Of a stretch of 38,589 nucleotides of DNA, positions 12,080-14,834 are shown piece after piece (the first letter of the stretch is position 1; the number at the start of each line of letters is the position of its first letter). Origin of the DNA: Nevskia sp. (GTDB lineage Bacteria; Pseudomonadota; Gammaproteobacteria; Nevskiales; Nevskiaceae); contig JADGHB010000024.1 in assembly GCA_019689635.1 (NCBI GenBank), positions 1 through 38,589 of the forward strand. Direction: 5' to 3'. Made by a program: the position numbers and the translations under genes. The notes beneath the pieces are model-generated. The model was not told the origin of the DNA. It was given only the letters and a program-made list of their open reading frames with translations, and searched no databases.

Positions 12080-12693
12080 TGCGCCGGCCGGTCGCGGACG
12101 AACCGCCGCGGACGAGTCTCTTCGCAAGGCTCTATGCCTGGATGCAGCGCGCGGCGCGCCACCGGCGCGCGGCCTGGTGGCTGGCGGCGATCAGCGCGGC
12201 GGAAGCTTCGTTTTTTCCCGTGCCGCCGGACGTGATGCTGGCGCCGATGGCGCTGGAACAGCCGCGCGCCTGGTTCCGGCTGGCGACGATCTGCACGCTG
12301 GCGTCGGTGATCGGCGGCATCGGCGGCTGGCTGCTGGGGCATTACCTCATCGTGCAGCTGCTGCCGTGGCTCGAGCGCCTGGGGTATTCCCCGGCCTATG
12401 AAGCCACCCGCGTATTCTTCGCCAAGTACGGTTTCTGGGCGATCATCCTCAAAGGGCTCACGCCGATTCCGTACAAGATCGTCACCATCACCGCCGGCGC
12501 CGTGGCGATGCCCCTGCCGGCCTTCGTCGCCGCTTCGTTCATCGGCCGCGGCCTGCGTTTCTATCTGGTCGCCGGCTTGCTGGGACTCGCCGGCCCGGCG
12601 GTGGAACCGTGGATCGCGCGCTACATCGACTACGTCGGCTGGGTGTTCCTGGCCTTGCTGGTCGGCGGCTTTCTGTGGTTCAGCCATCGCTGA
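12079..12693 (+). CDS. yqaA: YqaA-family VTT/DedA-like inner membrane protein
   Basis: A 204-aa multi-pass membrane protein of the SNARE-associated (VTT/DedA) superfamily, whose members are thought to move lipids across membranes. Visible features are a re-entrant-type ASFFPVPPDVMLAP segment at about residues 44-57, a glycine-rich hydrophobic stretch (GGIGGWLLGHYL), the conserved KGLTPIPYKIVTITAG at about 130-145 and two C-terminal hydrophobic helices. The start is fixed by the TGATG junction with the pcm stop. Position between pcm and nlpD matches the usual place of yqaA. The exact substrate is not known. Confidence 0.88.
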   Translation: MRRPVADEPPRTSLFARLYAWMQRAARHRRAAWWLAAISAAEASFFPVPPDVMLAPMALEQPRAWFRLATICTLASVIGGIGGWLLGHYLIVQLLPWLERLGYSPAYEATRVFFAKYGFWAIILKGLTPIPYKIVTITAGAVAMPLPAFVAASFIGRGLRFYLVAGLLGLAGPAVEPWIARYIDYVGWVFLALLVGGFLWFSHR

Positions 12694-13454
12694 AGCGCGC
12701 GGCGCTCGTCTGGCTCGCCGTGCTGCAAACCGGCTGCGCCGGTCTGCTCAATTGGTCCGCCCCCGCGCCGCACGCACGCAGCGCGCATGCCAGCGGGCCG
12801 GTGAACGGCGATCGCTACACCGTGCGGCGCGGCGACACGCTGTATTCCATCGCGTTCCGGACGCAGCTCGATTACCGCGAACTCGCCGCCTGGAATGGCA
12901 TCGGTTCGGATTACACGATTTATCCCGGCCAGGTGTTACGGCTGTCACCGCCGCAGGCTTATCGCTCCGTGGCCGAGGCGTCCGCTTCGCCGGCCACCAA
13001 CCGCGTACCGGACACGCCGGAGCGCCAGACGCCCAAGCCGACGGCGCCGCCCGCGCCGGTGGTTGCCAGCGCTCCGTCTTTCAGTGCCCGGCAGTGGGAG
13101 TGGCCCACGCGCGGCACGGTGGCACGCGGCTTCGATCCCGCCGACGGCGCCAAGGGGATCGACATCGCCGGCGATTACGGCCAGATCGTGGTCGCCGCCG
13201 CGGCGGGCAAGGTGGTGTATTCCGGCAGCGCGCTTAAGGGCTACGGCGAGCTGATCATCGTCAAGCACGACGAGGACTATCTTTCTGCCTACGGCTACAA
13301 CCGCCGCCGCCTGGTGCAGGAGGGCGAATGGGTCGCCGCCGGCCAGCCCATCGCCGAACTGGGCATGGGGCCCCAGCAGAAACCGCTGCTGCACTTCGAG
13401 ATCCGCGACAAGGGCCGGCCGGTGGATCCGCTGCCCCTGCTGCCCAAGCGCTAG
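12675..13454 (+). CDS. nlpD: Murein hydrolase activator lipoprotein NlpD
   Basis: An outer-membrane lipoprotein that activates the amidase AmiC during cell separation. From the GTG at 12675 the 259-aa product starts with a basic n-region, a hydrophobic stretch (AALVWLAVL) and a lipobox LQTGC. A LysM peptidoglycan-binding domain follows (about residues 48-92, YTVRRGDTLYSIA), then a proline/threonine-rich linker and an M23/LytM domain (about 140-255). The zinc ligands of active M23 peptidases are missing: the HxxxD site reads AKGID and the last motif is LLHFEIR. That degeneracy is characteristic of NlpD. The gene overlaps the yqaA end by 19 nt. The usual downstream neighbour rpoS is replaced by metZ. 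Confidence 0.94.
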   Translation: MVQPSLKRAALVWLAVLQTGCAGLLNWSAPAPHARSAHASGPVNGDRYTVRRGDTLYSIAFRTQLDYRELAAWNGIGSDYTIYPGQVLRLSPPQAYRSVAEASASPATNRVPDTPERQTPKPTAPPAPVVASAPSFSARQWEWPTRGTVARGFDPADGAKGIDIAGDYGQIVVAAAAGKVVYSGSALKGYGELIIVKHDEDYLSAYGYNRRRLVQEGEWVAAGQPIAELGMGPQQKPLLHFEIRDKGRPVDPLPLLPKR

Positions 13455-13473: not shown

Positions 13474-13502
13474 TTGAGCCGCGCCCGGAACCCACGTACA
13501 CT
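13474..13502 (+). promoter_or_regulatory. Predicted sigma70 promoter of the metZ leader
   Basis: TTGAGC at 13474-13479 and TACACT at 13497-13502 are separated by 17 bp, each matching consensus at 4 of 6 positions. Transcription would start near 13509, which is the first base of the P1 stem of the riboswitch that follows. This fit of promoter and aptamer supports both calls. Confidence 0.6.
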
Positions 13503-13508
13503 GCGGCC

Positions 13509-13561
13509 TGCGCCGATTTGGAGCCGGCTTGCGGGGCGCAGGACAAATTCCGCTAAAAGGG
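13509..13561 (+). promoter_or_regulatory. SAM-II (SAM-alpha) riboswitch aptamer upstream of metZ
   Basis: Matches the class II S-adenosylmethionine aptamer. P1 is TGCGCC (13509-13514) paired with GGCGCA (13535-13540), six perfect pairs. The loop begins GATTTG, like the conserved GAUUUAA. After P1 comes ACAAAT (13543-13548), like AUAAAU, and then the hallmark GCTAAAAGGG (13552-13561), one A shorter than the well-known GCUAAAAAGGG form. The pseudoknot helix can be drawn as GCGG (13531-13534) with CCGC (13550-13553); its bases differ from the reference sequence I know, yet still pair. SAM-II elements typically control methionine and SAM genes, and the gene downstream is metZ. High SAM is therefore predicted to reduce metZ expression. 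Confidence 0.82.
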
Positions 13562-13566
13562 CAGCG

Positions 13567-13600
13567 AAAGCCCGTTTAGCAAATGCTGGCGGGCTTTTTT
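13567..13600 (+). terminator. Intrinsic terminator in the metZ leader (riboswitch expression platform)
   Basis: AAAGCCCG (13567-13574) pairs perfectly with CGGGCTTT (13590-13597) around a 15-nt loop that can extend by three pairs (AGC/GCT), and the 3' arm runs into six T residues (13595-13600). It begins six bases after the SAM-II aptamer and ends before the metZ Shine-Dalgarno. A competing pairing exists: AAAAGGGC (13555-13562), part of the aptamer tail, can pair at 7 of 8 positions with GCCCGTTT (13570-13577), which would disrupt the terminator when SAM is not bound. Confidence 0.82.
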
Positions 13601-13619
13601 GCTGCCCGAGGGCAAGACC

Positions 13620-14834
13620 ATGAGCGAATTCGCGGATCCAAACTGGGGCGCGGCTACGCTGGGCGTGCGCGCGGCCGAGCCGCGCGGCGCGGAGCGCGAG
13701 CACTCCGCCGCGCTGTATCTGACGTCCTCCTTCGTGTACCAGAGCGCCGCGCAAGCGGCGGCGGTGTTCGCCGGCGAGGAGGCGGGCAACATCTACTCGC
13801 GCTTCACCAATCCGACGGTGCAGGCCTTCGAACGCCGGCTCGCCGCGCTGGAAGGCGGAGCATCCTGCGTGGCCACCGCCAGCGGCATGGCGGCGATCCT
13901 CTCCATGTGTCTGGCGCTGCTCAAATCCGGCGACCATATCGTCACGGCGCGCACGCTGTTCGGTTCCACCATCAACCTGTTCAACAACGTGCTGGCCAAG
14001 TTCGGAGTGGAGACCACCTATGTGGACGCGGCCGATCCCGCAGCCTGGCGCGCCGCACTGCGTCCGAATACGCGGCTGCTGTTCGCGGAAACGCCCAACA
14101 ATCCGCTCGGCGACATGGTGGACATCCGCGCGCTGGCCGAGATCGCGCACCGGGCCGGTGCCTGGCTGGCCATCGACAACTGTTTCCTGACGCCGGTTTT
14201 GCAGCAGCCGCTCAAGCTCGGCGCGGACCTGGTGATCCATTCCGCCACCAAGTATCTCGACGGGCAAGGGCGTTGCGTGGGCGGCGCGGTGGTCGGCGAT
14301 GCCGAACGCGTGGGCAAAGACGTGTTCGGGTTCATGCGTACCGCGGGGCCGTGCATGAGCCCCTTCAACGCCTGGGTGTTCTTGAAGGGCATGGAAACGC
14401 TCGCCCTGCGCATGCGAGCGCACAGCGAGAACGCCTTGCGACTCGCGCAGTGGTTGCAAACGCAGCCGCAGGTTGAACGGGTGTATTACCCGGGGCTGCC
14501 GGATCATCCGCAACACGAACTGGCGAAGAGCCAGCTCGTGCCTTGGGGCCGTGGTGCGCAGGCCACCTGGAGCTTCGGCGGCATCGTGTCCTTCGAGGTG
14601 CGCGGCGGACGCGAGGCGGCCTGGCGCGTGATCGATGCCGTGCGCATGATCTCGATCACCGCCAACCTCGGCGATACGCGCAGCACCATCACCCATCCGG
14701 CGAGCACCACCCACGGCCGCATCTCGGCGCAGGCGCGCGCCGCGGCCGGCGTCACCGAAGGTCTGCTGCGCGTGGCGGTCGGTCTGGAAGACGTGGAAGA
14801 CCTCATCGCCGACCTCGCGCGCGGGCTGCGCTAA
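13620..14834 (+). CDS. metZ: O-succinylhomoserine sulfhydrylase
   Basis: A PLP enzyme that makes homocysteine directly from O-succinylhomoserine and sulfide, bypassing cystathionine. The 404-aa product belongs to the Cys/Met metabolism PLP family. The PLP lysine is Lys211 in SATKYLDGQGR, a form typical of MetZ rather than MetB or MetC. It also shows YSRFTNPT, ASGMAAI, ETPNNPLG and AIDNCF. The ATG at 13620 follows a GAGGG Shine-Dalgarno seven bases upstream; an upstream in-frame TTG at 13599 lies inside the terminator T-run. Control is by the SAM-II riboswitch and terminator in its leader. The Nudix gene follows nine bases later and may share the transcript. Confidence 0.95.
   Translation: MSEFADPNWGAATLGVRAAEPRGAEREHSAALYLTSSFVYQSAAQAAAVFAGEEAGNIYSRFTNPTVQAFERRLAALEGGASCVATASGMAAILSMCLALLKSGDHIVTARTLFGSTINLFNNVLAKFGVETTYVDAADPAAWRAALRPNTRLLFAETPNNPLGDMVDIRALAEIAHRAGAWLAIDNCFLTPVLQQPLKLGADLVIHSATKYLDGQGRCVGGAVVGDAERVGKDVFGFMRTAGPCMSPFNAWVFLKGMETLALRMRAHSENALRLAQWLQTQPQVERVYYPGLPDHPQHELAKSQLVPWGRGAQATWSFGGIVSFEVRGGREAAWRVIDAVRMISITANLGDTRSTITHPASTTHGRISAQARAAAGVTEGLLRVAVGLEDVEDLIADLARGLR

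Follow-up and report, generated by a model that had tools for sequence, protein, structure and literature searches.

A predicted SAM-II riboswitch ahead of metZ in Nevskia sp. and a candidate pocket-strand antiterminator among its gammaproteobacterial relatives

Introduction

How would a SAM-binding leader of the SAM-II class pass its ligand state on to the methionine gene behind it? SAM-II aptamers are often described, in the accessible parts of the literature, as having terminators downstream. The portion of a 2007 survey available to us states that the step from ligand binding to termination was not yet experimentally established, and the available text of a 2022 study in S. meliloti (Scheuer et al., PMC9373788) begins to address it. 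The question is raised anew by a leader in Nevskia sp. (assembly GCA_019689635.1), located in a stretch of 38,589 nucleotides (contig JADGHB010000024.1, positions 1 to 38,589) analyzed here in full and referred to as the window. A reading of its letters alone (the original prediction) had placed ahead of metZ a SAM-II riboswitch with a built-in terminator and mutually exclusive pairings. Our literature search returned no paper joining SAM-II and Nevskia. We analyzed the leader by covariance models, by folding against shuffled sequences, and by comparison with its relatives in the order, the class and elsewhere in the phylum.

Results

The leader of metZ carries a SAM-II aptamer

An Rfam cmscan of the whole window gave a single match at gathering, RF00521 (SAM_alpha, SAM-II), on the forward strand at 13500-13577. 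The match spans the full model length at 37.7 bits against a gathering score of 36 (E 3.8e-05) and ends 42 bases 5' of metZ. The class named in the original prediction is thus confirmed by the covariance model. R1, a model that we built from 31 gamma-type aptamers, scores the aptamer at 62 bits at 13506-13565, the window being one of its training rows. Both models find this match and no other in the genome (2.8 Mb, 101 contigs). The next gene places the aptamer upstream of a methionine gene, as is characteristic of the class: the open reading frame scores 667.9 bits with NCBIfam NF006003 (cut-off 522) and 573.9 bits with TIGR01325 (cut-off 510.05), two curated models that agree with metZ as the gene proposed to be regulated. 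Among the 80 named loci kept for comparison, the closest MetZ is that of a Nevskia soli MAG, at 79%. The features of the leader are collected in Table 1, their coordinates having been checked against the sequence, of which 701 bases around the element were inspected; P1, the pocket letters, the terminator, the Shine-Dalgarno and the promoter-like pair all sit where they had been predicted.

Table 1. Features of the metZ leader, in window coordinates
Feature	Position	Strand	Remarks
-35-like hexamer TTGAGC	13474..13479	+	17-nt spacer to -10-like hexamer
-10-like hexamer TACACT	13497..13502	+	8/12 consensus letters for the pair
SAM-II aptamer	13507..13562	+	RF00521 match 13500-13577; R1 13506-13565
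P1 5' strand CCUGCGCC	13507..13514	+	8 bp with 13535-13542
L1 third strand GAUUUG	13515..13520	+	invariant in 31 aptamers (alignment A1)
P2a 5' strand GCC	13523..13525	+	can pair with GGC 13560-13562 (3 bp)
P2b 5' strand UUGC	13529..13532	+	pairs with 13552-13553 and 13555-13556
P1 3' strand GGCGCAGG	13535..13542	+	pairs with 13507-13514
Shared strand GCUAAAAGGGC	13552..13562	+	P2 3' strand and SAM pocket, or antiterminator 5' strand
Extended stem GGGCAGC/GCUGCCC, enclosing terminator	13559..13607	+	window-specific, outside proposed switch
Shared strand GCCCGUUUAGC	13570..13580	+	antiterminator 3' strand, or terminator 5' arm
Terminator 3' arm GCUGGCGGGC	13585..13594	+	hairpin 13566-13600
U-tract, six U	13595..13600	+	directly after terminator 3' arm
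Shine-Dalgarno GAGGG	13608..13612	+	7 nt ahead of ATG 13620
metZ, O-succinylhomoserine sulfhydrylase	13620..14834	+	NCBIfam NF006003, TIGR01325

The pocket letters GAUUUG, CUUGC (13528-13532) and GCUAAA (13552-13557) are all intact in the window, and are invariant or nearly so across the 31 gamma-type aptamers of alignment A1 (L097 left out as a duplicate); these aptamers were picked with the GAUUUG motif as anchor. The role of GAUUUG as a triplex third strand is taken from the available descriptions of the SAM-II and SAM-V structures. Folding energy is unremarkable, with 20 of 200 shuffles equaling the P1 hairpin and 11 of 200 equaling the leader as a whole (13507-13600); support for the aptamer rests on the covariance match and on the comparisons. 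A comparison of related metZ leaders, suggested along with the original prediction, found P1 kept and covarying: five of its eight pairs show changes on both sides, and the inner five pairs are never broken, while the two outermost are unpaired in 23 of the 31 aptamers. For P1 and P2b together the covariation score is 0.102, versus 0.052 in shuffled alignments (0/500 as high), with 84.4% of cells paired (7/500 as good) and a number of further pair types that is not unusual (101/500). P2b, with 97.6% of its cells paired, never covaries in these aptamers and, being invariant, says nothing either way. Covariation of P2a was not found in the gamma-type leaders, where 2456 and 4756 of 5000 permutations did as well in the swap test; the same test was strongly positive in 55 loci elsewhere in the phylum (0/5000). 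L287, L143 and L019 were left out of the P2a and third-stem analyses. We conclude that the leader is a genuine SAM-II riboswitch, a member of the known class and, by its sequence, a predicted SAM binder.

Ahead of the aptamer, the promoter-like pair reaches a score equaled by one of 200 single-letter shuffles of the region; a consensus scan with a threshold of 9/12 reported no promoter in the leader. The pair would start transcription at about 13508-13510, no more than 3 nt from the first base of P1, in support of the predicted start at that base. Comparable pairs stand above shuffles (p<=0.1) in 17 of 22 order leaders, and one of the five misses, L019, had been trimmed to less than the length needed. 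The gene that precedes the riboswitch (12609-13454) resembles the amidase activators ActS/NlpD, with matches below curated cut-offs, and does not resemble purF; in the named relatives L018, L020 and L022 an apparent purF end, as read by eye, precedes metZ. The metZ gene may have been relocated in the lineage of the window.

Predicted terminator and antiterminator use shared strands

The hairpin at 13566-13600 folds at -18.8 kcal/mol, as well as one in 200 dinucleotide shuffles, and with the six U at its end it bears out the built-in terminator. A simple terminator scan missed it, with its only hit on the other strand, probably on account of the loop and stem rules of that scan. Upstream, GCUAAAAGGGC can pair with GCCCGUUUAGC at 10 of 11 positions, with one A.G mismatch, to give an antiterminator hairpin of -12.9 kcal/mol (1/200 dinucleotide shuffles as good). 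The pairing first proposed, 13555-13562 with 13570-13577 at 7 of 8 positions, is present and was drawn too short by three pairs. The extended antiterminator reaches 13552 and so uses the SAM-pocket strand itself; it takes in the pocket letters GCUAAA, which supports the proposal that it excludes the SAM-bound fold. Both hairpins use 13570-13580, and both the antiterminator and the P2 pseudoknot use 13552-13562. The leader thus has a terminator and a mutually exclusive antiterminator that overlaps the aptamer, the arrangement of a transcription-terminating riboswitch. When successive 5' fragments were folded, as nested folds with pseudoknot and kinetics outside the calculation, the antiterminator was best at 13581-13590 and the terminator from 13596 onward. 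By the nested-fold energies the complete terminator wins over the antiterminator, and hence read-through without SAM must be kinetic.

Our preferred reading, which we hold at a probability of about 0.85 from the sequence, is that the SAM-II riboswitch represses metZ by transcription termination. Transcription would begin at or near the first base of P1. When SAM is scarce, GCUAAAAGGGC would be free to pair with GCCCGUUUAGC across a 7-nt loop, and polymerase would read through this antiterminator into metZ. With enough SAM, the P2 pseudoknot would enclose the ligand and sequester GCUAAAAGGGC; because the antiterminator and P2 share 13552-13562, this would free the terminator arm, and GCCCGUUUAGC would then pair with GCUGGCGGGC to form the terminator before the U-tract, where transcription would stop. 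The two states would exclude each other, since GCUAAA belongs to the ligand pocket as well as to the antiterminator. The logic would be that of a classic off-switch, in which SAM binding and each step after it, the folding order and the direction of control are our inference.

The enclosing pairing and the case for translational control

The original prediction also offered a third pairing that would enclose the terminator. GGGCAGC (13559-13565) does pair perfectly with GCUGCCC (13601-13607), and the 13559-13607 fold reaches -33.5 kcal/mol, with none of 200 shuffles as good. As a mechanism it fared less well. Of the 75 loci with a U-run (misassigned in L098 and L100), just three, the window among them, have a pairing that outdoes 95% of their shuffles; this is about chance level, and we rejected the pairing as a conserved part of the switch. 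The 3' half of the pairing is transcribed only after the U-tract, by which point termination has already been decided. We take it to be a feature of read-through transcripts that is specific to the window.

This stem bears on the foremost alternative, an aptamer that acts mainly on translation, in which SAM binding or the stem restricts access to the Shine-Dalgarno while the terminator attenuates constitutively. The stem is very stable and ends directly ahead of GAGGG (13608), and for S. meliloti metA the available account gives translational SAM-II control together with a terminator for which no effect of SAM is predicted. The Shine-Dalgarno of metZ, however, lies 45 nt past the end of the aptamer, outside its pairings; conservation of the stem was not seen (3/75 leaders), and nothing in this reading would account for a terminator arm complementary to 10 of the 11 positions of the pocket strand. 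We consider translational control unlikely on these grounds, and continue with transcription termination.

The proposed pocket-strand antiterminator recurs in the class

The aptamer model ends a few bases past GCUAAA, and the downstream arm therefore provides an independent test. In each leader the 11-nt strand was paired with the next 45 nt and compared with 100 dinucleotide shuffles. Pairing stronger than in 95% of shuffles was seen in 11 of the 22 leaders of the order, in 7 of 11 additional loci of the class and in 32 of the 51 representatives of class families. For loci elsewhere in the phylum, probably mostly alphaproteobacteria as judged by GTDB rank, the same test gives 4 of 57, or 1 of 17 with one locus per family, where about 5% is expected by chance. 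The order set excludes the near-duplicates L017, L021, L099, L101 and L102, and L014, L152 and L158 were dropped before the leader counts. The family set has one locus per family, without L285 (an alpha-like aptamer) and without L251 and L284, so that family f232 is absent; the f138 representative (L287) was taken from an RF00521 hit, not from R1. The 51 representatives were drawn from 77 of the 181 genomes that match R1, the other 104, 18 of them with E above 1e-8, not being inspected individually; the representatives are mostly the best-scoring loci, and their rates may therefore flatter the class. A U-tract of at least five lies within 130 nt in 42 of the 51.

Counting the leaders in which five or six of the GCUAAA letters are paired gave 17/22 (order), 8/11 (class), 40/51 (families) and 14/57 (other phylum loci), versus 9.4, 4.5, 25.1 and 16.3 expected from shuffles. 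The count agrees in direction with the energy test; given this null it was too blunt, and the energy test was used instead. The swap test for the antiterminator was strong in the 11 other class loci (1/5000 permutations as good) and weak over the 51 families (220/5000). Within the order covariation was absent (3190/5000), the arms being near-identical; the antiterminators of the order are conserved without covariation. Core pairing is missing in 5 of the 22 order leaders, and pairing is weakest in L009, L011, L012, L013 and L016, alongside L005. By eye, L007, L009, L011 and L013 carry GCAAGC, which is complementary to the other P2 strand, GCUUGC.

Taken as a class-wide proposal, which we put at roughly even odds, these leaders would represent a distinct gammaproteobacterial architecture that about half of the sampled class genomes would carry, in most cases scoring under the Rfam threshold. 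The terminator 5' arm would be antisense to the pocket strand, SAM and antiterminator would compete for the same nucleotides, and P2a would be reduced or dispensable, while alphaproteobacterial members would rely on the outer P2a strand. A description of such a pocket-strand antiterminator was not found in the accessible literature searched.

Low Rfam scores are usual in the group

Among 85 genomes of the order, RF00521 gave full-length matches in 22 at E<=0.001, with 10 above the cut-off, and R1 matched 43, some of them partially. One of the 22, L014 (genome G042; 28.5 bits, E 2.2e-4), reads by eye as dnaK coding sequence; R1 has no match in that genome, and we discarded L014 as a false positive. 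In class samples of the same size for each search (369 genomes, a few of them in the R1 training set), RF00521 found 118 at E<=0.001 and 31 above the cut-off, and R1 matched 181. Surveys at the curated SAM_alpha threshold would thus undercount the class (31/369 versus 181/369), and a low Rfam score, as in the window, is usual for its group. In the 80 named MetZ loci R1 found 15 at E<=0.5 (13 full length, two partial), in Solimonas, Sinimarinibacterium, the Nevskia soli MAG and other gammaproteobacterial MAGs; none of the Halomonas-type MetZ loci searched with R1 matched. L019 and L021 (Solimonas variicoloris and S. flava) and L299 (genome G011) carry a hairpin insertion between P1 and the A-rich aptamer strand, so that only the first part still matches R1.

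A score just 1.7 bits above gathering might also suggest a decayed or non-binding SAM-II relic kept as a leader, and 12 of 18 members of the genus are without the element, L308 among them retaining by eye a GCCGATTTG remnant alone. We judge this very unlikely for the window: GAUUUG, CUUGC and GCUAAA are all preserved, P1 keeps its 8 bp, and low scores are the rule in the gamma type, with 31 of 369 genomes of the class above the cut-off.

The element was most likely inherited within the order

The original prediction had found SAM-II surprising in a gammaproteobacterial gene order and had raised transfer of the regulated unit. The surprise did not hold up: Coxiella SAM-II is named in the legend of a 2005 figure, the part of that source consulted, so that gammaproteobacterial SAM-II has been in print since then, and R1 matches 181 of 369 class genomes. 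Leyn et al. 2014 (PMC4239095), in its available text, lists SAM_alpha in only two alphaproteobacterial groups, which fits an effect of the Rfam threshold. Every one of the 18 genomes of the genus has metZ and six have the SAM-II element (L299 with the inserted hairpin); no element was seen in the leaders of the other 12. In a tree of 84 MetZ proteins, the 18 genus members group together (99/97) inside the order; bootstrap was not settled, one alpha row sits on an artefactual long branch, and row L103, its branch artefactual, was probably read in the wrong frame. The branching of element-bearing and element-free members suits loss better than gain, by eye, and the element was most likely inherited vertically.

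Recent transfer of riboswitch and metZ from an alphaproteobacterium, as the available text of the 2007 survey proposed for sporadic gammaproteobacterial SAM-II and as the patchy presence in the genus (6/18) might suggest, is the least probable of the readings and is unsupported, for the tree sets the 18 MetZ of the genus among the riboswitch-bearing MetZ of their own order, and mean aptamer identity to the window is 75% in the order (n=25), 72% in the class (n=99) and 68% elsewhere in the phylum (n=55), means so close together that they are weak evidence alone.

Targets, tandem aptamers and mobile DNA

An O-succinylhomoserine sulfhydrylase-type gene follows the aptamer in 42 of the 51 family representatives (L287 among them being of the O-acetylhomoserine type), where the next gene was taken as the longest open reading frame near the aptamer, a choice that is probably wrong for L224, L231, L243 and L283. 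Of the other nine, two precede metF, one a MetN-like gene (below the curated cut-off) and one metX; in the remaining five the next gene has no NCBIfam match, and four of these five are tandem aptamers. The leaders found in family f10 (L134, L138, L139, L141, L142 and L261) are of the gamma type. The gene after L261 is metX (NCBIfam, 658.3 bits), and those at the other f10 loci look metX-like by eye.

Tandem SAM-II-type aptamers were seen in genomes of the class at L223, L224, L231, L243, L246, L273, L274, L276, L277, L279, L281 and L289, three pairs of which are the same places (L223 and L289, L224 and L281, L231 and L273). The first aptamer is followed by a terminator-like stretch and the second lies just ahead of the Shine-Dalgarno. 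The genes behind several of them have no known link to methionine metabolism: the target at L313 is a MoxR-like AAA ATPase (Pfam AAA_5 40.6 bits, bpMoxR 30.2), and others are small open reading frames without a Pfam match. The available part of a published account (PMC9481103) holds 44 tandem SAM-II examples; MoxR-like and small-ORF targets were not found in that part. Genome G714 (L273-L277, L316, L317) has ten R1 matches, and several of the five that were read are near-identical tandem pairs. In the two flanks that were read, there is an IS1595-type transposase near L317 and, near L316, an open reading frame that looks integrase-like by eye; the aptamers of G714 have possibly spread with mobile DNA.

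Discussion

By itself the window adds little: the class is known, the target is standard and so is the logic. The pocket-strand antiterminator offers a simple, testable account of how SAM-II ligand binding could lead to termination. The element is like RF00521 SAM-II (the metA motif of Corbino et al. 2005) in its full-length match, P1, pocket letters, downstream terminator and methionine target. It differs in that the arm of its terminator is complementary not just to the P2a strand but to the pocket strand GCUAAA too, whereas in the SAM-II loci sampled elsewhere in the phylum the pocket-strand pairing is at chance (4/57) and P2a covaries strongly.

Three published systems come close to it, each compared here through the available part of its description. 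The SAM-II riboswitch of S. meliloti metZ (Scheuer et al. 2022, PMC9373788) has the same gene, the same class and a predicted SAM-induced Rho-independent terminator; it is alphaproteobacterial, unlike the window, with its alternative structures shown in a supplementary figure. The beta-proteobacterial metXZ element (Leyn et al. 2014, PMC4239095) shares the metX and metZ leaders, a possible pseudoknot and a terminator, and was reported as new and distinct from SAM_alpha; the gamma-type leaders of family f10 may be this element, by a comparison of descriptions only. The SAM-V riboswitch has a near-identical SAM pocket. Its control is translational with an extra P3, in place of which the window element has a terminator.
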